In this document: positions 2,020-13,344 of the stretch, in pieces
How the letters are laid out: each line of letters begins with the position of its first letter
Position numbering within the stretch: the stretch's first letter is position 1
From: Myxococcales bacterium
Lineage (GTDB): Bacteria > Myxococcota > Polyangia > Polyangiales > Polyangiaceae
NCBI GenBank assembly: GCA_020430865.1
Contig: JAGQIY010001291.1
Coordinates: forward strand, 1 to 14,819
Direction: 5' to 3'
DNA length: 14,819 bases
Translations under genes and position numbers: made by a program
The notes under the pieces: model-generated
What the model was told of the DNA's origin: nothing
Databases searched by the model: none
The model's input: only the letters and a program-made list of their open reading frames with translations

Positions 2020-2200
2020 CCGGTGAGGATCATCGCACACTCCCACACGACCTGGGAAACGCCAGCGTATCAGGGTCCGCGACACTCGCGTCGCCGGGGC
2101 CGAGGACGCAAGGCTCCACCTCACCCCCAAACCCACTATCTGCACACCATGCGCAAATAGTTATTTGCACGTAGCATGCAACTATATCAGGCTCTGGCGA
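2020..2200. promoter_or_regulatory. Divergent intergenic region between J-domain gene and hydrolase gene
   Basis: This 181-bp stretch must hold the promoters for both divergent genes. The first part is ordinary GC-rich sequence. Bases 2150-2190 are conspicuously AT-rich for this genome and contain inverted-repeat sequence described separately. I could not pick a -35/-10 pair with proper spacing on either strand. Confidence 0.6.
2153..2168. promoter_or_regulatory. Palindrome, candidate operator for the TetR regulator
   Basis: Arms GCAAATA (2153-2159) and TATTTGC (2162-2168) are perfect inverted repeats around a 2-bp centre. A second overlapping dyad, TTGCA (2165-2169) and TGCAA (2177-2181), shares the right half. 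The site ends 32 bp before the ATG at 2201 of the first gene in a unit that also encodes a TetR-family repressor. TetR proteins usually bind short palindromes over their own operon promoter. Position and symmetry are seen; the binding protein is inferred. Confidence 0.5.
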
Positions 2201-3958
2201 ATGGGTCGCCGAGGTTCCTGGGTGTTTCTCGTCTGCTGCTCGCTTGGCGGAGGCGCGAGTCTGGCCAGTGTGGTCGGGTGCTCGAAGTCCGACCCCAAAC
2301 CGGCCGCCGTGGTGCCGACTCCGCAGACGCTCTCCGACCACTGTCAGACCGCGATCGGAGCGCCTCGGGTGGTCAAGGTCACGCCCAACCTATTCGTGGC
2401 GGTTGGCTACGATCTCGCCAACACGATCGTGCTCCACACCCCGGACGGCAACGTGGTGGTGGATGCGATGATGAGCCCCGAGCGCGCCAAGCAAGCCAGG
2501 GCGGAGCTCTCGAAGCTGGCGCCAGGGCCGACGAGAGCGCTCATCTTCACCCACAGTCACATCGATCACGTCGGCGGCGCCAGCGCTTGGCTCGACGAAG
2601 GTACCGAGATCTGGGCCACCGCGCGCTTTCGCGAGCACTTCATCAAGCAGTATGGCGTCTTCCAGCGCGCCGAACGTATCCGCGGGGTAAGGCAGTTCGG
2701 GCGCAACGTGGACGCAAAGTCTCTCGAGTGCTCGGCGCTGGGACGGAACCCAGACTTCGACCTGCACGTCGGAGGAGGGATCCGGATGCCAACCAAGACC
2801 TTCTCCGGCAAGACCAGCTTCAGTGTCGGGGGCGTGGAGGTCGAGCTGGTCGAGGCCCACGGAGAAACCGATGACGAGCTCTTCGTCTGGATCCCCAGCG
2901 AACGCGCGCTGCTGCCGGGCGACAACTTCTACCGGGCGTTCCCCAACCTCTACACGATCCGTGGCACGCGAGCGCGACCCGTTTCCGAGTGGATCTCGAG
3001 CCTGGATACCATGCGCAGGCTCGAAGCCGAGCACCTGGTGCCGTCGCACACGGTGCCCGTCTCCGGCAAGCAAGCCATTCAGCAGGCCCTGGTGACCTAC
3101 CGCGATGGAATCGCCTATGTGCGCGCAGCGGTGGTACGGGGTGCCAACGCAGGGCTCGGCGTCGACGAGCTCGTCGATACCATCCGCTTGCCTCCGCACC
3201 TGGCCAAGGCGGCGGAGCTGACCGAGCTGTATGGTCAGGTGGACTGGTCCGTGCGCGCGATCTATGACAACGAACTCGGCTGGTTCGACGGCTCACCGCA
3301 GGCGCTGTATCCGCTGCCAAGGAAGGAGCTGAGCCGCCGCGAGATCGCGGCGATGGGGGGCAGCGAGAAGGTGCTGGAGCTGGCCAGGCGTAGCCTGGAG
3401 CAGGGAGAGGCCCGCTGGGCGCTGCACCTCCTGAGCAAGCTACTGGACGTCGGCAGTGAGTCCGCACGGAAAGACCTGAAGCCCTTGGTCGCTCGCGCGC
3501 TGCGGGAGGTGGGCAAGGACGTCTACAACACCAACGGCCGCGGCTACTTGCTGCAGAGCGCGCTGGAGTACGAAGGCAAGGGCTCCAGCCTCAAGCCAGA
3601 GGTCAGCGACGCGCTGCTGGCCGAGCTCCCGGTGTCCACCTTCTTCGACACCATGGCCACCCGCCTTAAGGCGGACGAGGCGAAGGACGTCGAGGAGACG
3701 CTCAAGATCCATTTCAGGGATCTGGACGAAGACGTCTTCGTCACGGTGAGGAAGGGAGTGGCAGAGGTCGCGATGGGCACGGCGCTGCCGGGGACCCCCG
3801 AGCCCTTCGCCACCCTCACGACGGATAGCCTGACCTGGAAGCGCATGGCGCTCGGCAAGGACAGTCCGCTGTCTGCCAGCCTCGACGAACGTCTCAGCGT
3901 GGAGGGCGAGCTGCTCCGGGTGCGCAGCTTCACCGAGCGCTTCGACAAGGGGCTGTAG
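2201..3958 (+). CDS. Alkylsulfatase-like metallo-beta-lactamase-fold lipoprotein with SCP2-like C-terminal domain
   Basis: Predicted exported Zn hydrolase of 585 residues, resembling SdsA1/BDS1-type alkylsulfatases. The N-terminus is a lipoprotein signal with SVVGC placing the lipidated Cys at 27. The metal motif THSHIDHVGG gives H118, H120, D122 and H123. Later ligand candidates are E222 (GETDDE), D241 (LLPGDNFYRAFPNLYT) and H283 (PSHTVP). SdsA1 ligands E280 and E299 are also 19 residues apart, so D241 appears to replace the second Glu. The NLYTIRG segment near 249 matches the family's conserved substrate-side segment. A helical dimerisation-type region follows, then an SCP2-like domain from about 475. 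The frame continues 12 codons upstream from a TTG, but the ATG at 2201 gives a clean signal peptide. It may hydrolyse alkyl sulfate or a related ester; the substrate is not established. The regulator gene follows 21 bp downstream. Confidence 0.85.
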   Translation: MGRRGSWVFLVCCSLGGGASLASVVGCSKSDPKPAAVVPTPQTLSDHCQTAIGAPRVVKVTPNLFVAVGYDLANTIVLHTPDGNVVVDAMMSPERAKQARAELSKLAPGPTRALIFTHSHIDHVGGASAWLDEGTEIWATARFREHFIKQYGVFQRAERIRGVRQFGRNVDAKSLECSALGRNPDFDLHVGGGIRMPTKTFSGKTSFSVGGVEVELVEAHGETDDELFVWIPSERALLPGDNFYRAFPNLYTIRGTRARPVSEWISSLDTMRRLEAEHLVPSHTVPVSGKQAIQQALVTYRDGIAYVRAAVVRGANAGLGVDELVDTIRLPPHLAKAAELTELYGQVDWSVRAIYDNELGWFDGSPQALYPLPRKELSRREIAAMGGSEKVLELARRSLEQGEARWALHLLSKLLDVGSESARKDLKPLVARALREVGKDVYNTNGRGYLLQSALEYEGKGSSLKPEVSDALLAELPVSTFFDTMATRLKADEAKDVEETLKIHFRDLDEDVFVTVRKGVAEVAMGTALPGTPEPFATLTTDSLTWKRMALGKDSPLSASLDERLSVEGELLRVRSFTERFDKGL

Positions 3959-3979: not shown

Positions 3980-4564
3980 ATGTCACAAGCTCCCACCGAC
4001 GGCCGAGTGAAGCGCCGCATGCTGACTCGCAAGCGCATCATCGACGCCCTGCGTGCGCTGATCGCCGAAGGCCAGGCCAGACCGACGGCCGAGCAGATAG
4101 CAAGGCAAGCCGGAGTCTCGCTCCGCTCCATCTACCAGCACTTCGCCGATGTCGACGATCTGTTCGCCGAGCTCGCGAAGCAATCACTCGGCCCCAGCCC
4201 AGACAGCGTCCCGGTGGCCGAGGGCGCGCTCCACGAACGCATCGCACGAATCGTGGAGCAACGAGACCGCTACTACGACGAGATCCAGGACTCCGCGAAG
4301 CTGGCGCTCAGGCTCGAGGGCTCCTCCGACGAGGTCGCGCGCGCGGTACGGGCGGTGCGTCGCGAGCTGCGCCACCAGGTCAGCGCCACGTTCGCTCCAG
4401 AAATCGCCACGCTGCCAGACGACGAGCGCGAGGATCGCCTCGAGGCCTGCATCGTGGCGCTCTCGTTCAGCACCTACGAGCTGCTCCGCAGTCACCACGC
4501 GCTGAGTCGATCCCGTTACCGCAAGGTAACGAAACTCAGCCTGAGACTACTGCTGAGCCAGTGA
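3980..4564 (+). CDS. TetR/AcrR-family transcriptional regulator
   Basis: A 194-residue DNA-binding repressor-type protein. A basic N-terminus (VKRRMLTRKRIID) leads into the TetR helix-turn-helix at about 34-58, with the typical sequence AEQIARQAGVSLRSIYQHF and then the DLFAEL helix. The rest is all-helical and fits a ligand-binding/dimerisation domain too divergent to name an inducer. Length is normal for the family. It starts 21 bp after the alkylsulfatase-like gene on the same strand, so the two are probably co-transcribed. The shared upstream region carries a palindrome that could be its operator (2153-2168). A model follows in which the hydrolase substrate or product is the inducer; that is inference. 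The start has only a weak, distant GGAG. It converges on the small helical protein 17 bp downstream. Confidence 0.88.
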   Translation: MSQAPTDGRVKRRMLTRKRIIDALRALIAEGQARPTAEQIARQAGVSLRSIYQHFADVDDLFAELAKQSLGPSPDSVPVAEGALHERIARIVEQRDRYYDEIQDSAKLALRLEGSSDEVARAVRAVRRELRHQVSATFAPEIATLPDDEREDRLEACIVALSFSTYELLRSHHALSRSRYRKVTKLSLRLLLSQ

Positions 4565-5090: not shown

Positions 5091-6326
5091 TCAGAGCTGT
5101 GAGATCGTCACCGAGTAGAACGCCCGGTTGTAGCTGACCGTGCCGCCCTTGCCGAGGTAGCAGATCCCGGCGTAGTAGCGACCCGGGGGTGGCTTCACCC
5201 AGGTGTAGGTGATGGGCACGACGATGAGGGAACGAACAGCCGGAAGCTGGCTGTGGAAGACGGGCGCCAGCGGCCCTTGCGTTCCCACCAGACACGCGCC
5301 CACTTCGAAGCTGCTCTCGGAGCCGACGATTCCGGTCACACCGTTGATCGTCACCACCTGCCCGTCGCGGACATCGAACGTCTCGCTCTGCCCCACGACG
5401 ACGTCTTCTCCGATCAGCTGAACACTCCCATCTTTGATGGCGTCCGCGGCCCAGGCGTAGATCGTCCCACTTGGACCTTGTGGGCCCTGGATCCCCTGGA
5501 TCCCCTGGATCCCCTGAATGCCGCGCGGCCCGGTCGGCCCCGTGGGCCCAGGCGCGCCGTTCGTGCCGTTGGTTCCCGCTGGACCCGTGGGGCCGGTCGG
5601 GCCCGGGGCTCCGTTCGTGCCGTTGGTTCCCGTCGGCCCCGTCGGCCCCGTCGGGCCCCGCGTACCAGTCGCACCCGTCGCACCAGTTGGCCCGACAGGT
5701 CCTTGGGCTCCGGTCGCCCCGGTGGCACCCGTCGGACCGCGAGCACCGGTTGCGCCCGTGGCTCCGGGCGGTCCTTGAGGTCCCGTCGCCCCCTGAGCAC
5801 CCGTCGCGCCCGCGGGTCCCTGGGGTCCCGTCGGGCCGACCAGTCCGCTGCTCGGGCCGACCCAGTTGCCCGACTCGTCGATGACCAAGCCGCCCCCGAC
5901 ACTCACACTGAGCGGCGAGATGGCGCCGATCGCGTTCTCACACACCAGGGCGTACGGCGCGCTCACCAGCGGCTCCCGCGGGCTCATCTCCGTGTCTCCA
6001 TCGACGGCCACTCCGAGGTAGCGGGTGGAACCATCGAAGAGACCCGGGCTCAGCGGCACCGACTGCCCCAAGACGATGGCGAAGTAGCCATCCTCCAGGG
6101 TCACGTCCACCGTCTCGGTCCAGAGAACCGTGCCGTCCACGGACGCGTCGTACAGCGTGAACACGAAGCTGAGTGTGCCGTTCACGGGCTGACCCTGGTC
6201 GTCGAACAGGCGTCCCTGGTGCCCCAGATACGGCGGCACCGTCTGCGCGACCGCGACCGACTGGAAGCAGACGGCTGCTGCTACTGCGGCGATGCTCAAC
6301 TTGATGCGAGAGATCTTGCGCTTCAT
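5091..6326 (-). CDS. Secreted collagen-like (Gly-X-Y) fibre protein
   Basis: A 411-residue predicted extracellular protein. A signal peptide (basic MKRKISRIK, hydrophobic Ala/Val core, AVAQ cleavage-like site near 28) is followed by an N-terminal domain to about 163. That domain reads like a widespread bacterial module ([18 protein letters not shown], a LWTE box, then [12 protein letters not shown]). A continuous Gly-X-Y tract of about 41 triplets covers roughly 164-287. It is rich in [16 protein letters not shown] and [10 protein letters not shown] and ends in [14 protein letters not shown] globular C-terminal domain of about 120 residues may trimerise. Prolines sit largely at X and threonines at Y, as in bacterial collagens that lack hydroxyproline. 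The ATG at 6326 was chosen over the one at 6332 because GGAAGGG lies 8 nt before the former and only 2 nt before the latter. Its start is 21 nt after the upstream lipoprotein's stop, so the two form an operon. Confidence 0.9.
5466..5837 (-). repeat. Gly-X-Y coding repeat block
   Basis: Uninterrupted triplet-repeat coding for the collagen-like tract. Within it a 54-bp (18-residue) unit is duplicated almost exactly, seen as identical 22-bp cores at 5557-5578 and 5611-5632. A 9-bp unit (CCCTGGATC on the + strand) occurs at 5485-5493, 5494-5502 and 5503-5511 with a variant at 5512-5520, encoding GIQ repeats. Such arrays are prone to slippage and length change. Confidence 0.9.
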
Positions 6327-6334
6327 CGTCATAA

Positions 6335-8078: not shown

Positions 8079-9734
8079 ATGCGCATTCTGCTCGTCATGC
8101 CCACCCCGTTCGAGACGGGACGCCTAGGACTTGAAAACGTAGTCTGGCTCTCGGAGCCCGTGGCGCTCACCAGCATCGCAGCGGCGGTGCCCGAGGAGCA
8201 TGAGATCCGTCTCCTCGACCTGCGCCTCGAGCCCGAGGACGCCCTGGCCAAGGCCCTGGTCGACTTCGCGCCCGACCTCGTCGGCACCACCAGCATGACC
8301 ACCGACGTCTACCAGGCGAAGGCGGTCTTGCGCATGACTCGTCAAATCCGCCCGGAAGCGCTCACCGTGGTCGGGGGTCACGCTCCGACGCTGCAACCGC
8401 AGGAGTTCGAGGAGGACTACATCGACGTCGTGGTGCAGGGTGAGGGCGAGCACACCTTCCGCGAGCTGGTGGAACGCTGGAATCAGGTCGTCAGCGCCGG
8501 GGCTCAGCTCGACGCGGTGAGCCGACGCTTTCCCGGCATCCCCGGCGTCCGCTATCGGGACGAGGGCGGATACGTCGTGAACGCCAAGCGCGAACAGACG
8601 GTCGCGCTCGACGAGCTACCAGCGCCAGACCGTAGCCTGGTGGCCAAGTACTACGGGCGCTACTTCTTCACCGTGGCGCGGCCCATGGCGAGCATCTTCA
8701 CCAGCCGGGGCTGCTCCTTCGACTGCAACTTCTGCGCGATCTGGGAGTTCTACGAACGGCGTACCCGCTTCTTATCCGCAGAGAAAATTGCGGACCAGAT
8801 GCAAGCCTGCAAGGAAGACTTCATCTTCCTGCTGGATGACAACTTCCTGACCAGCAAGCGGCGACTGACGGAGCTGTGTGAGGAGCTCGAGCGTCGCAAA
8901 CTGAAGAAGTTCTGGATGACCCAGGGCCGCACCGACTTCGTCGCGGACAACCCCGAGCTGATTGCGCGCCTGGCCAAGAACGGTCTGATCGGGCTGCTGA
9001 GCGGCTTCGAGTCCAACGACGACGACAGCCTGGCGTCGCTACGCAAGAAGAACACCTGGGACAAGAACAAGCGCGCCAATCAGATCCTCAGGGACAACGG
9101 CGTGTTCTCGACGGGGATCTTCATGGTGCGCGCGGACTGGACACGAGAGCAGTTCCAGGGTTTGTACGACTACATCAACACCCTGGAGATCGGCATCCCG
9201 CTGGTCACCATCCTGACACCGCTACCCGGGACCCAGCTGTATCGCGCCTATCAGGACAAGCTGTTGACGACCGACTACCGGCTCTTCGATCTGCTGCACG
9301 CGGTGCTACCCACGAAGCTGCCCCGCGAGGAGTTCTACCAGGAGTTCGCCCGCGCCCTCGACGCCACCGAGGACTCCGCGCACCGCGCAATGAAGAACGT
9401 GGCTAAGCGCCGACCGGACTTCATGCGCAAGTACGCGAAGAACATGCTCTGGTTCTACGCGCGCACCTGGCGCTACCAGCGCGTGCACCGCGACTACCGC
9501 TCGTTCCTGCGCGATGAGGAGGGCCTGCTGAATGGCCCCGGCGCCAAGGCGCAGCTCACCTGGCGAGACGTCGAGTATCCGCGCGGCGACGAACACAGTA
9601 AACAGGCGCAGCAGGAGCCAGGCCTGGTCAAGCTCCGAATCCCCAAGGATACATGGGTCGACGAGCTGCCCGCGGTGGGCGTCGCTCCTCCAAAGGGGCG
9701 AAACAACCCAGACAGCCCCATCGCCGCCGAGTGA
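8079..9734 (+). CDS. B12-binding-domain-type radical SAM protein
   Basis: A 551-residue cytoplasmic radical SAM enzyme. Residues 1-135 have the Rossmann-like cobalamin-binding fold (MRILLVMPTPFE, then LLDLRL, VGTTSMTTD and VVGGHAPTL at 97-105). The usual DxHxxG motif is replaced by DLRLEP, so the lower-axial His is missing. The [4Fe-4S]/SAM motif is CSFDCNFC, with C212, C216 and C219 in CX3CX2C spacing. The TIM-barrel part continues with LLDDNFL, GFESNDDDSL and the typical LTPLPGTQLY segment, then a 150-residue C-terminal region. Architecture resembles HpnP-like methylases and other B12-radical SAM enzymes of lipid and natural-product pathways. The substrate is unknown. The ATG at 8079 starts exactly at the domain; the open frame extends 43 codons upstream into non-coding sequence. 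GGAGG at 8059-8063 is a rather distant ribosome site. The HDO oxidase gene follows 22 bp later. Confidence 0.9.
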   Translation: MRILLVMPTPFETGRLGLENVVWLSEPVALTSIAAAVPEEHEIRLLDLRLEPEDALAKALVDFAPDLVGTTSMTTDVYQAKAVLRMTRQIRPEALTVVGGHAPTLQPQEFEEDYIDVVVQGEGEHTFRELVERWNQVVSAGAQLDAVSRRFPGIPGVRYRDEGGYVVNAKREQTVALDELPAPDRSLVAKYYGRYFFTVARPMASIFTSRGCSFDCNFCAIWEFYERRTRFLSAEKIADQMQACKEDFIFLLDDNFLTSKRRLTELCEELERRKLKKFWMTQGRTDFVADNPELIARLAKNGLIGLLSGFESNDDDSLASLRKKNTWDKNKRANQILRDNGVFSTGIFMVRADWTREQFQGLYDYINTLEIGIPLVTILTPLPGTQLYRAYQDKLLTTDYRLFDLLHAVLPTKLPREEFYQEFARALDATEDSAHRAMKNVAKRRPDFMRKYAKNMLWFYARTWRYQRVHRDYRSFLRDEEGLLNGPGAKAQLTWRDVEYPRGDEHSKQAQQEPGLVKLRIPKDTWVDELPAVGVAPPKGRNNPDSPIAAE

Positions 9735-9756
9735 GCATCTTCCACCTGGAGCCAAC

Positions 9757-10623
9757 ATGACCCAGTCAGCCAAAGCCTTCCTCAAGGACCTGCGCCGAGA
9801 GATCGAGTCGCACCCCGCGGTGAATCATCTGTTCCTGAATCGCCTCGCCACGAGCCCCTTCGCCAAGCAGGACTATCGGGTCTTCGCCGAGAACCACTAC
9901 GCCCTGGTGTGCATCTTCACGAGCTATCTGGAGTCGCTGCTGGTGCGGGCGCCGGACAGCGAAGCCAAGCTGTGGCTGGCGAAGGTTCTGGTCGACGAGT
10001 ACGGAGAGGGCTCCGAGGGGCGCGACCACAGCAACCTCTACGCAAGTTTCCTCGAGGCAACGGGCGGTGACCCGAGCGCGGTGATGAGCGAGAACGTGCG
10101 AGCTCCCGCGCACGCCTTCATCACGACGCATCAACGCCTGGTGCGCGAGCGCCCCTTCCTGGAGGGGCTAGGAGCCGTGGGCCCTGGTCACGAGTGGGCG
10201 ATCCCAAAGATGTTCGAGGCGGTGATACCTGGCCTGCGCCGAGCGGGCTTCGACGAGACCGAGATCCAGTACTTCACGTTGCACGTCGAGCAGGACGACG
10301 ACCACGGAAGCTGGCTCGAGGAGGCGCTCGAGCGCTACGCCAGTGAGACCCAGGCGCAGCAGGAGATCCGTCGTGGCGCCATCGCCAGCCTGGAAGCCCG
10401 CGGGCGCTTCTGGGAAGGAGTGCAACGCGAGGTCATCCGCTACCGCCAGCCCCGTGCGCCGCGACCCGATGGGCCGAAGCCGCGCGCCTTGCTCGGCGAA
10501 GTGCTGATCACCGCCTGGGACGGCTTCGAAGCCGGCAAGCAACTCGAAGACCGCGTCCGCGGCTGGTGGGCGGAGCGCCGCCCGACGCTCGCCGGCCTGC
10601 GGCAACTCACGCGACAACTCTGA
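9757..10623 (+). CDS. Heme-oxygenase-like diiron oxidase (HDO; CADD/PqqC/TenA-like superfamily)
   Basis: A 288-residue helical enzyme of the superfamily that includes CADD, UndA, BesC and the central SznF domain, which use a diiron or Fe/Mn centre and O2. The ligand pattern is complete. E81/E84 and H91 lie in DEYGEGSEGRDH, with E84 and H91 seven apart as in CADD. E146 is in GHEWAIP. H176, D180 and H183 are in HVEQDDDH, with the exact H-x3-D-x2-H spacing. Tyr172 lies four residues before H176, a position also Tyr in CADD. The C-terminal 60 residues (beyond about 230) exceed the usual CADD length and are Arg-rich. GGAG 5 nt before the ATG supports the start; the open frame runs 75 codons further upstream inside the radical SAM gene. 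It lies 22 bp after that gene, so co-transcription is very likely. The reaction is not predictable; oxidative cleavage, N-oxygenation or pABA-type chemistry are known for relatives. Confidence 0.88.
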   Translation: MTQSAKAFLKDLRREIESHPAVNHLFLNRLATSPFAKQDYRVFAENHYALVCIFTSYLESLLVRAPDSEAKLWLAKVLVDEYGEGSEGRDHSNLYASFLEATGGDPSAVMSENVRAPAHAFITTHQRLVRERPFLEGLGAVGPGHEWAIPKMFEAVIPGLRRAGFDETEIQYFTLHVEQDDDHGSWLEEALERYASETQAQQEIRRGAIASLEARGRFWEGVQREVIRYRQPRAPRPDGPKPRALLGEVLITAWDGFEAGKQLEDRVRGWWAERRPTLAGLRQLTRQL

Positions 10624-10660: not shown

Positions 10661-11578
10661 ATGAAACGCAGGACCTGGCTCGCGGGTGGTTTGGCGCTGG
10701 GGGGAGCCGGCCTGCTCGAGTATCTGTCTCTGCGCGGTGACTTCGACAATCGTTCCGCAGTCGGCACCACGAACGGCGATCGCTACCGGCAGAGCATTCG
10801 CCGACTCGACGCAGGAGAGGTGAAGAACGGGCTCTTGCACCTCGCCCACTCGACCCACCTGATCGTCCTCGACGGGAAACGAATCCTCACGGATCCCTGG
10901 TTCTTCGACCCCGCCTTCGGCTCGCTGGATCATGCGGTGCTGCCGCCGGTCCAGGCGGAGAAGGTGGGCAAACTGGACGCCATCCTGGTGAGCCACGATC
11001 ACCCCGATCACGCCGATCCGATGGCGCTCGACCGCCTGGACAAGTCGGCGACGGTGTTCGTGGGGCTGAAGGAGCTGGAGACCAAGCTCAGGTTGCTTGG
11101 ATTCAAGACGGTGGTGCGCATTGGCGAGTGGGAGCAAGGCAAGCTAGGGGATCTGGAGATCGCCGCCACTCCGGCGCTCCACGACTCACCCGAGGTCGGC
11201 TTCGTGCTCAGCGGTGAGCAGACGAGCGTCTACTTTGGCGGCGACACGACGCTGATCGATGACCATCACCGCATCGGTGAGCAGTTCGCACCCATCGTCT
11301 CGATCCTGCCCGTGGACGGGACACGTATCCGCTGGGAACCTCTCCTGGTGATGGATCCCACGCTCGCCGTCGAGGCCACCCGGCGCTTGAAGAGCAGGCA
11401 AGTGTTCCCGAGTCATCACGAAGCTGGATACTCGGATCCCCTGGCCGAGCACCTGCTATCGACCACGGTTCGCGGTGCGGGCGCCGACTTCTCGGCCCGA
11501 GTCGAGGAGCAGCTGAGCGGCGTGAAGGCCGAGCAGCCGCAGGCAGGCGAGCTCGTCCCACTCATCCTGCGTGGTTGA
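10661..11578 (+). CDS. UlaG-like metallo-beta-lactamase-fold hydrolase, possibly Tat-exported
   Basis: A 305-residue metal-dependent hydrolase. The N-terminus MKRRTWLAGGLALGGAGLL has a twin-Arg followed by x-W-L and a hydrophobic stretch, a plausible Tat signal or membrane anchor without a clear cleavage site. The metal motif SHDHPDH gives H112, H114, D116 and H117. Further ligands are H174 (PALHDSP), D195 (YFGGDTT) and H252 or H253 (FPSHHEAGYSD). This set matches the UlaG/NAPE-PLD-like branch, which acts on lactones, phosphodiesters or N-acylphospholipids. The sequence LLHLAHSTHLIVLDGKRILTDP at the start of the fold is represented here only by its ends, LLHLAHST and ILTDPWF, which are typical of the branch. 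It follows the HDO gene by 37 bp with a weak ribosome site. Its membership in the same pathway is likely by position only. Confidence 0.85.
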   Translation: MKRRTWLAGGLALGGAGLLEYLSLRGDFDNRSAVGTTNGDRYRQSIRRLDAGEVKNGLLHLAHSTHLIVLDGKRILTDPWFFDPAFGSLDHAVLPPVQAEKVGKLDAILVSHDHPDHADPMALDRLDKSATVFVGLKELETKLRLLGFKTVVRIGEWEQGKLGDLEIAATPALHDSPEVGFVLSGEQTSVYFGGDTTLIDDHHRIGEQFAPIVSILPVDGTRIRWEPLLVMDPTLAVEATRRLKSRQVFPSHHEAGYSDPLAEHLLSTTVRGAGADFSARVEEQLSGVKAEQPQAGELVPLILRG

Positions 11579-11673: not shown

Positions 11674-13344
11674 ATGAGCGGGTGGAGCGGAGACTTGGTG
11701 GTGATGGGCTCGGGCGCCGCGGGGCTCTCGGCGGCGCTGGCGGCGCGAGCGGCGGGCCTCTCGGTGCTCGTCATCGAGGCGGCGGACAGCATCGGAGGAA
11801 CGACCGCGGTGAGCGGTGGCGTGATCTGGGTCCCCTGCAACAGACACCAGCGAGCTCGCGGCATCAGCGACTCCATCCAGCACGCCCTCGAGTATCTGGA
11901 GCACATCAGCGAAGGGCGCGCGCCGCGCAGGCTGATCGAACGTTACCTCACGGCATCACCCATGATGCTCGACTTCGTCGAGGACAGCATCGGCGTGGAG
12001 TTCGAGTGCCTGGACACCTACCCAGACTACCAGCCGGAGCTGCCGGGGGGTCTCACTGGCGGGCGCAGCCTCGACAACCCACTCTACGACACGAACCGTC
12101 TCGGAGACTGGCAGCCCAAGCTGCGCAAGAACCCGATCACCGGCAAGGCGCCGATGACCATCGGTGAAGCCATGGCTTGGCAGGTGTTCTCCAAACCGCT
12201 CGGCTTTCCCTTTCGTGACGTCTACGATCGCCACAAGCGTGGCCTGGTGCACGGTGGCGCGGCGCTCATCGGGCGCCTTCTGGAGGCCTGTCTCGCTCGC
12301 GGGATAGAGCTCCGATTGCAGACCCGCGGGCGAGAGCTGATGCGCGACGACGCAGGTCGAGTGAACGGCTTGCGCGCGACCGACGAGAGCGGCGCCGTCG
12401 AGCTCACTGCTCAGCGCGGCGTCGTGCTCGCGAGCGGCGGATTCGCGTGGAATCCGGAGCTGTGCAAGGACTTCTTGCTTGGCGTACCTACACATCCGGC
12501 GAGCGTACCGACCTCGCGAGGTGACGGACTGCTGATGGCCATGAGCGCGGGTGCAGCGCTCGGCAACATGAGCCAGGCGTGGTGGTGTCCAGCGGTCGAG
12601 GTGCCGGGAGAGGAGTACGACGGCGCTCCGCTCTACCGACCCGAGTTCGCTGCGCGTTGCCTCCCCCACTCGGTGATCGTGAACGCCAGCGGGCAGCGCT
12701 TCACCGCGGAAGCGACCAACTACAACGACGTGACCAAGCCGTTCTTCGACCACGGCCCGGTCGGCTACCGTCGAAAGAACCTCCCGGCGTTTCTGATCGT
12801 CGACCAGCAATACCGCGAGAAGTACGCGCTGCTCAGCGTGCCGCCAGTGATCCCCGGCATCGAGCCGAGGCCACTTCCGGAGTGGGTGAAGTGCGCGGAT
12901 ACCTTGGAAGCGCTGGCCGACCGCTGCGGGATCGACGCCGCCACACTGGTCCGCAGCATCGAGCGCTTCAACCATCAGGCGGAGGCGGGTGACGACACGG
13001 ATTTCGGCCGAGGCAGGAGCGCCTTCGACCGCTTCTACGGCGACCCGGATCAGCTCCCGAACCCCAACCTCGGCACGCTCGCCAAGCCGCCGTTCTACGC
13101 CGTGCAGCTCCGACCGAGCACCATTGGCACCAAGGGAGGTCCGAAGGTCGATCAGCATGCGCGCGTCTTGCGACCAGACGGCTCCCCCATTCGAGGCCTC
13201 TACGCCGCAGGCAACGCCATGGCCAGCATCATGGGTCCAGGCTACCCGGGCGCCGGGGCGACGATTGGCGTGGCGCTGACCTGGGGCTACCTCGCAGGTC
13301 GCCACGCTGCCGAGGGCCGCAAGGAACGGTCCAGCGTCGAATAA
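11674..13344 (+). CDS. FAD-dependent oxidoreductase, 3-ketosteroid dehydrogenase-like
   Basis: A 556-residue flavoprotein of the fumarate reductase/3-ketosteroid dehydrogenase family. The FAD dinucleotide motif is GSGAAGLSAAL at 12-22, with the ribose-binding E35. It is followed by the family signature GGTTAVSGGVIWVP at 41-54. Residues resembling the KstD active site are present: Tyr119 in YPDYQPELPGG, Tyr350 in the FTAEATNYND segment, and Tyr524 plus Gly528 in GPGYPGAGATIG, where the +4 spacing is the same as Tyr487/Gly491 of KstD1. The second FAD segment is LYAAGNAMASIMG. Length is normal. It would remove hydrogens from a ketosteroid-like or other 3-keto substrate; the actual substrate is uncertain because the family is broad. 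AAGG at 11662-11665 is 8 nt before the ATG. The gap from the previous gene is 95 bp, so it may have its own promoter and need not belong to the preceding genes. Confidence 0.85.
   Translation: MSGWSGDLVVMGSGAAGLSAALAARAAGLSVLVIEAADSIGGTTAVSGGVIWVPCNRHQRARGISDSIQHALEYLEHISEGRAPRRLIERYLTASPMMLDFVEDSIGVEFECLDTYPDYQPELPGGLTGGRSLDNPLYDTNRLGDWQPKLRKNPITGKAPMTIGEAMAWQVFSKPLGFPFRDVYDRHKRGLVHGGAALIGRLLEACLARGIELRLQTRGRELMRDDAGRVNGLRATDESGAVELTAQRGVVLASGGFAWNPELCKDFLLGVPTHPASVPTSRGDGLLMAMSAGAALGNMSQAWWCPAVEVPGEEYDGAPLYRPEFAARCLPHSVIVNASGQRFTAEATNYNDVTKPFFDHGPVGYRRKNLPAFLIVDQQYREKYALLSVPPVIPGIEPRPLPEWVKCADTLEALADRCGIDAATLVRSIERFNHQAEAGDDTDFGRGRSAFDRFYGDPDQLPNPNLGTLAKPPFYAVQLRPSTIGTKGGPKVDQHARVLRPDGSPIRGLYAAGNAMASIMGPGYPGAGATIGVALTWGYLAGRHAAEGRKERSSVE

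Follow-up and report, generated by a model that had tools for sequence, protein, structure and literature searches.

Why would a myxobacterium place the gene of an oxygen-requiring enzyme directly behind that of an oxygen-sensitive one, and do the two serve a common pathway? Oxygen is generally harmful to radical S-adenosylmethionine (SAM) enzymes, and haem-oxygenase-like diiron oxidases (HDOs) need it. Such a pair is encoded on contig JAGQIY010001291.1 of a Myxococcales bacterium (Polyangiaceae; GenBank assembly GCA_020430865.1), in a stretch of 14,819 nucleotides that was analysed as a whole and is called the window here. Judged by gene order across genomes, the B12-binding-type radical SAM gene (rSAM1) and the HDO gene are conserved as a closely spaced unit in both Myxococcota and Planctomycetota. 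The operon is genuine and its enzyme classes are known, their combination was not found described, and a link to light is promising in a subset of lineages. An initial annotation, made from the letters alone, had placed the two genes on one strand, 22 bp apart, with a good ribosome site for the second, and the coordinates bear it out (22 bp between the genes, both on the + strand, with a GGAG before the HDO start):

8079–9734, + strand: rSAM1, B12-binding-type radical SAM protein of 551 aa, recognised by its Pfam domains and CSFDCNFC cluster motif
9748–9751, + strand: GGAG, ribosome-binding-site-like, 5′ of the HDO start, read directly from the sequence
9757–10623, + strand: HDO of 288 aa, recognised by its PF14518 match, alignment to CADD/BesC chains and conservation

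Conservation and class of the two enzymes

A search of GTDB species genomes with the HDO sequence alone found 29 loci, and rSAM1 (49–74% identity) lies directly 5′ of HDO in 27 of them. Of the two exceptions, L008 is truncated where its contig begins, and the stretch fetched for L025 contains no rSAM1. Among 377 Myxococcota genomes, with the best six HDO or best three rSAM1 candidates scored in each genome where more existed, HDO at ≥53% identity and rSAM1 at ≥54% occur in an identical set of 15 genomes and are adjacent in all 15; the next-best matches are 39% (HDO) and 37% (rSAM1) identical. Pairing of the two genes is far beyond chance, and the radical SAM partner, whose conservation around HDO homologues had been proposed as the check to make, is conserved by both counts. 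Of 948 homologous proteins, 120 were listed and 15 used.

The packing is equally consistent. Across 34 non-redundant paired loci, the window included, the spacing is at most 30 bp in 29, and 22 have overlapping genes. These and the neighbour counts below rest on codon-based gene calls made for this analysis; five refetched copies (L129, L136, L140, L142 and L145) were excluded, and two close relatives of L014 (L137 and L139) were retained, hence there are fewer independent cases than the counts. Pairwise distances of HDO and rSAM1 are correlated (r = 0.90, n = 34), with none of 2000 permutations reaching as high a value.

The initial annotation of a B12-binding-type radical SAM protein holds for rSAM1, which matches PF02310 (B12-binding, 81.8 bits) and then PF04055 (Radical_SAM, 64.5 bits) above their cut-offs, with CSFDCNFC at residues 212–219. 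The CxxxCxxC pattern is present in all 38 rSAM1-family sequences listed, refetched copies counted in. The protein thus has the architecture of class B B12-binding radical SAM enzymes, from which its activity and cobalamin binding are predicted. Its best NCBIfam model, aligned over residues 1–474, is the hopanoid C-3 methylase HpnR (TIGR04367), which has the same architecture, but the score of 242 bits is far from the cut-off of 650. Second is the Mg-protoporphyrin ester cyclase BchE (TIGR02026), at 154 bits against a cut-off of 481, with no search made for chlorophyll genes. Relatives of rSAM1 outside the family (33–37% identity; G057, G197 and G190) are likewise not HpnR, with 224–232 bits against its model. 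One 37% relative (L170:5952-7349) has no HDO and is followed by a gene that by eye is metallo-beta-lactamase-fold-like (L170:7321-8154), so hydrolases of this kind may be partners of this radical SAM group in other loci.

The HDO matches PF14518 (Haem_oxygenas_2) at 111 bits, against a cut-off of 28.9. Its metal ligands had been read as E84, H91, E146, H176, D180 and H183; the last five stand, and the first Glu ligand is probably E81 rather than E84, because E81 aligns in phmmer with a Glu of CADD, which we take to be a metal ligand there, and occurs in every one of 68 relatives. E81, H91, E146, H176, D180 and H183 each occur in 99–100% of these 68 family HDOs, where E84 is found in 84%. A second set of 43 HDO sequences has E81 in 42 and E84 in 43. 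The residues H91, H176, D180 and H183 are invariant across both sets and E146 is missing from about one sequence in each. By this pattern the protein carries the three His and three carboxylate ligands of the HDO superfamily, and from the domain match a seven-helix haem-oxygenase fold with a dimetal site is predicted. One close relative, P0013, is missing both E81 and E146 with the other ligands kept, and is possibly a degenerate or repurposed copy. The C-terminal extension of about 60 residues, first thought unusual, is instead a clade feature common among window-like myxobacterial HDOs: comparison with three of them shows 30–34 of its 65–66 residues identical, and in seven further HDOs its conservation is poor.

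The Haem_oxygenas_2 domain and the aligned ligand pattern are shared with UndA, BesC, CADD, HrmI and SznF. The closest solved structures are distant, however (BesC 51.6 bits, CADD 42 bits), and the family of the window's HDO forms its own clade, inside which no characterised member was found. The best NCBIfam match is the CADD family (TIGR04305, 69 bits, cut-off 200), and the BesC equivalog NF042919 reaches 61 bits against a cut-off of 500; with scores this far below cut-off, both the BesC and the BchE equivalogs were ruled out. Close relatives carry the putative database labels pyrroloquinoline-quinone synthase or iron-containing redox enzyme. Roughly twelve HDOs have been characterised, the majority with fatty acids or amino acids as substrates, according to the available part of a review (PMC13108848).

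One-way dependence and a larger gene module

Genome comparison also places the two genes in an unequal relation. An HDO at least 51% identical to that of L023 occurs in 36 of 392 Planctomycetota genomes. rSAM1 was searched for in 71 of these 392 drawn genomes (the 36 HDO-positive ones and 35 without a close HDO) and was found at ≥55% identity in three, each time adjoining HDO; four others gave matches of 28–33% identity. In Bdellovibrionota a close HDO occurs in one of 191 genomes (G012), whose best rSAM1 match is 30% identical and on another contig. All 18 genomes with rSAM1 have HDO and none was seen with rSAM1 and without HDO. The dependence is one-way: rSAM1 was seen only with its HDO neighbour, and HDO also occurs alone.

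In a tree of 67 HDOs, from which L146 was left out and in which identical sequences were merged, the family is one clade (support 99/98). Paired members stand on both sides of its deepest split, with moderate support for the two sides (97/79 and 91/61), and solo members occupy two positions, in one case within a group of paired planctomycete members. The simplest reading of this tree, though not a proven one, would be that rSAM1 was lost at least twice.

The initial picture of a two-gene pair is borne out, but further genes frequently belong to the unit. Another B12-type radical SAM gene (rSAM2, 25–27% identical to rSAM1) lies 3′ of HDO in 17 of the 34 paired loci and also in the truncated locus L008; two rSAM2 proteins that were scanned fall far under every NCBIfam cut-off. 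HDO and rSAM2 distances correlate with r = 0.96 (n = 17). The other recurrent neighbour is the first of two genes that follow HDO in the window:

10661–11578, + strand: metallo-beta-lactamase-fold hydrolase, 37 bp 3′ of HDO, containing HDHPDH and starting with a twin-arginine-like stretch (MKRRTWLAGG...)
11674–13344, + strand: FAD-dependent (flavin adenine dinucleotide) dehydrogenase, ketosteroid-dehydrogenase-like, 95 bp 3′ of the metallohydrolase

The metallohydrolase family is found on the same strand 3′ of HDO in 10 of the 34 loci, as the next gene in six and four to six genes on in four. HxHxDH is present in 12 of 12 family members listed, and by eye eight of the 12, the window's included, have a twin-arginine-like start, hence export of the enzyme is possible. 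The FAD-dependent dehydrogenase probably lies outside the module, because no counterpart was seen among the clustered related loci; a module role for this non-recurrent gene was rejected.

Light-regulator context and the proposed pathway

In five of 33 fetched paired loci (L002, L004, L007, L009 and L011) the pair lies near a gene for a CarH-like MerR/B12 regulator, and in the solo locus L110 such a gene is divergent from HDO. In L002, L004 and L007 a single strand carries, in order, CarH, an RpoH-like sigma factor, rSAM1, HDO and the metallohydrolase, the sigma factor and CarH domains having been scanned in the L004 proteins. All six CarH-like regulators possess the Wx9EH, ExHxxG and RxWERRY motifs; the one protein scanned, from L004, scores 112 bits against the cut-off of 400 for NF052513. 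As described in the part of PMC9304148 available, CarH features include Wx9EH, D/ExHx2G/P and the RxWERRY recognition helix, with Wx9EH separating CarH from CarA.

Locus L018 encodes a polyketide-cyclase-like and Epimerase/DUF1731 fusion and a 2-thiouracil-desulfurase/DUF1722 protein; Epimerase/DUF1731 relatives recur in L001, L019 and L027, and a polyketide-cyclase-like (SRPBCC) gene in L022 and L002. We take SRPBCC, Epimerase/DUF1731 and DUF1722 to be families found in light regulons. A CarH, SRPBCC or Epimerase/DUF1731 gene is present in 10 of the 33 fetched paired loci (435 kb), and none of the light-family genes was found in 23 control loci (250 kb) or in the main planctomycete solo clade (16 fetched loci, 265 kb). 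The regulators with signature motifs liken these loci to the CarH/LitR light regulons of Myxococcus and Pseudomonas. The difference lies in the targets, which in the available parts of PMC9304148 and PMC9758184 are carotenoid, photolyase, furan-fatty-acid and pterin genes; the phrase radical SAM is absent from the main text of PMC9304148.

A dedicated pathway is the natural reading, because the pair is conserved and tightly packed in two phyla and no described system was found. The initial annotation did not recognise the pair as a described system, and the open-access literature on radical SAM with HDO, and on CarH with radical SAM, likewise yielded no description of one. The terms radical SAM, B12, ferrochelatase, myxo- and planctomycet- are all missing from the main text of the HDO review (PMC13108848), and radical SAM is missing from a mangotoxin paper (PMC13185094). 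In the parts of two further papers that were available, radical SAM appears once, in a reference title (PMC10849742), and radical SAM and HDO are treated as separate domain families (PMC4520260).

With about even confidence, we propose that the genes are a dedicated biosynthetic module in which HDO acts first and which is light-controlled in some lineages. For its chemistry and its control we infer the following steps. HDO would oxidise the substrate with its diiron site and O2, by desaturation or by C–C or C–H cleavage as in UndA or BesC, and some Planctomycetota may use the product unmodified. Its place as the first enzyme is suggested because rSAM1 was not seen without HDO while HDO occurs without rSAM1. 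Then rSAM1, joined by rSAM2 where present, would modify the HDO product by radical chemistry, through methyl transfer or ring formation as in relatives of HpnR and BchE, and the metallohydrolase would trim or release the product, perhaps outside the cytoplasm. In a subset of lineages CarH would sense light via adenosyl-B12 and repress the operon in the dark, so that the product is made on illumination; the product of such a light-switched operon probably serves photo-oxidative protection. More tentatively, and with doubts that outweigh our confidence, we suggest an undescribed light-switched pathway of Myxococcota and Planctomycetota in which B12 is used twice, in the CarH photoreceptor that turns the operon on and as the cofactor of one or two radical SAM enzymes. 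These would work alongside an O2-dependent diiron oxidase, and the product would be a new photoprotective compound, be it a metabolite, a lipid or a tetrapyrrole.

Several observations weigh against the proposed module. HDO is without rSAM1 in 33 of the 36 HDO-positive Planctomycetota genomes. The initial annotation had named HDO homologues mostly lacking the radical SAM neighbour as the finding that would count against it; this is the situation in Planctomycetota and in none of the 15 Myxococcota genomes. The conserved packed unit supports its dedicated biosynthetic or cofactor pathway and the frequent solo HDOs of Planctomycetota qualify it. The Bdellovibrionota HDO also stands without rSAM1, upstream of a UbiB/ABC1-like kinase gene (L025:7995-8783, also L145), and solo HDO has a ferrochelatase-family gene beside or near it in 12 of the 19 close planctomycete loci that were fetched, a different context. 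The window is without rSAM2, and at least three genes intervene in four of the 10 metallohydrolase cases. The correlated HDO and rSAM1 distances may reflect shared host descent, which contributes to them. The query families of the light comparison were picked after being sighted in these loci, making the controls imperfect; several of the CarH cases come from related genomes, and perhaps two are independent among paired loci, plus L110. Queries for CarH and the other light genes gave no match within the window, and because the window is without a CarH gene, light control of its own operon would be an extrapolation.

An operon that joins an oxygen-sensitive to an oxygen-requiring enzyme in each of two phyla, with a B12 light sensor as its neighbour in several lineages, points to a new pathway with unusual chemistry. 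The pair offers a tangible way into an HDO subfamily in which no characterised member was found, and into possible CarH targets in myxobacteria beyond carotenoid genes.

Alternative explanations

A lipid pathway, unlikely but not without weight, would have rSAM1 alter an aliphatic lipid in the manner of HpnR and HDO desaturate or decarboxylate a fatty chain, yielding a light-protective membrane lipid. HpnR is indeed the nearest model of rSAM1. In the available parts of the sources, UndA acts on a fatty acid (PMC13108848) and the lipid gene ufaM lies within a light-regulated Pseudomonas cluster (PMC9758184). However, squalene/oxidosqualene cyclase (SQHop_cyclase) reaches 170 bits or more in only three of 26 paired genomes and is absent at this strength from the other 23; the same test found it in three of 14 Myxococcota and three of 11 Planctomycetota without a close HDO, and in eight of 11 genomes of the main solo clade. 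No recurrent fatty-acid gene was recognised beside the pair by eye, no dedicated search having been made. Given this cyclase test on the relatives' genomes and the HpnR score of rSAM1, hopanoid or sterol methylation by rSAM1 was set aside for most hosts.

We regard a tetrapyrrole substrate as improbable. HDO would here perform the oxidative propionate-to-vinyl decarboxylation of a coproporphyrin-type compound, which can be likened to the olefin-forming reactions of UndA and BesC, and the BchE-related rSAM1 would tailor the ring in paired lineages. BchE is its second-best model. Porphyrins are photosensitisers, and light control would fit a porphyrin substrate. The ferrochelatase-family gene speaks for the same substrate: it lies 3′ of solo HDO, directly in 11 of the 12 loci and one gene on in L119, and the arrangement occurs in three different surroundings. 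One of the 12 genes was scanned and scores 145.8 bits against a cut-off of 124.6. Of these 12 loci (L111, L112, L114, L115, L117, L118, L119, L121, L122, L125, L126 and L128), eight also have a divergent Nramp-like transporter gene, and most of the genomes concerned are without HemF, HemN and HemQ and carry an AhbD-like radical SAM protein.

The haem genes of the hosts bear on this alternative in both directions; genome completeness was not given, hence absences among them are soft. Among 23 solo-HDO planctomycete genomes, HemF was found in two, HemN over its cut-off in one, HemQ in three and none of the three in 17, and a TIGR00562-type protoporphyrinogen oxidase is over its cut-off in 22 of the 23, including all of these 17. 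Of nine HDO-free planctomycete genomes in which that oxidase exceeds its cut-off, eight carry HemF, HemN or HemQ, consistent with HDO filling the gap. In controls without a close HDO, none of the three was found in six of 14 Planctomycetota, of which only G399 has the oxidase over cut-off, and in two of 14 Myxococcota (G018 and G025).

The gap in most solo-HDO genomes is, however, probably filled by an AhbD-like radical SAM protein, which was found (214–317 bits in the best stretch, cut-off 500) in 16 of the 20 searched for it, including 14 of the 17. The six other HDO-related genomes searched alongside score no more than 138 bits. The HDO-free G399 likewise has a 427-bit AhbD-like copy about 3 kb from its protoporphyrinogen oxidase gene. 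Furthermore, no member of the ferrochelatase cluster was found in paired loci, and 17 of 19 paired genomes, all but G123 and G305, have a HemF-, HemN- or HemQ-family match: HemF in five (two weak, 78–94 bits), HemN in four and HemQ in eight (all weak, 40–53 bits). Because of the AhbD-like proteins and the paired genomes' own Hem matches, HDO as the missing coproporphyrinogen or coprohaem decarboxylase was set aside and kept only as a rival. AhbD-like proteins in oxidase-bearing genomes (G399, at L169 and L173, and the 16 solo-HDO genomes) suggest a haem route of mixed type whose last step is carried out by a radical SAM enzyme.

That the two enzymes are neighbours merely co-inherited or co-regulated, with no pathway in common, seems quite improbable. 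The commonness of solo HDO in Planctomycetota would suit it, but the one-way dependence, the overlap of start and stop codons, pairing in two phyla and correlated divergence argue otherwise. It is hardly credible that HDO is a CADD/PabS-type self-sacrificing p-aminobenzoate synthase with rSAM1 an unrelated neighbour: the CADD family is its top NCBIfam match but far under cut-off, the neighbour is conserved, hence not accidental, and Val156 of HDO aligns with Lys152 of CADD. Synthesis of p-aminobenzoate was set aside because the donor tyrosine is missing, the Tyr27 of CADD named in the available part of PMC13108848 being Leu27 in HDO and Leu in 96% of the 68 family members. A role in anti-phage defence was also rejected, PADLOC giving only weak matches, of 27 and 36 bits, for the two radical SAM proteins and none for HDO or the metallohydrolase.

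Elsewhere in the window, 2165–3958 encodes an alkylsulfatase-like protein of the metallo-beta-lactamase type, whose C-terminal part has dimerisation and SCP2-like domains, and is followed by a TetR-family regulator at 3980–4564; at 5091–6332 on the − strand lies a protein with collagen-like Gly-X-Y repeats and, by eye, a signal-peptide-like start. A distant planctomycete HDO clade (L130, L131, L132, L143 and L144) shows one to three tandem HDO genes followed by a gene that by eye is FMN-binding (flavin mononucleotide) and glutamate-synthase-like, with genes recognised, again by eye, as those of an NtrC-type regulator and a histidine kinase upstream in L130, L132 and L143.

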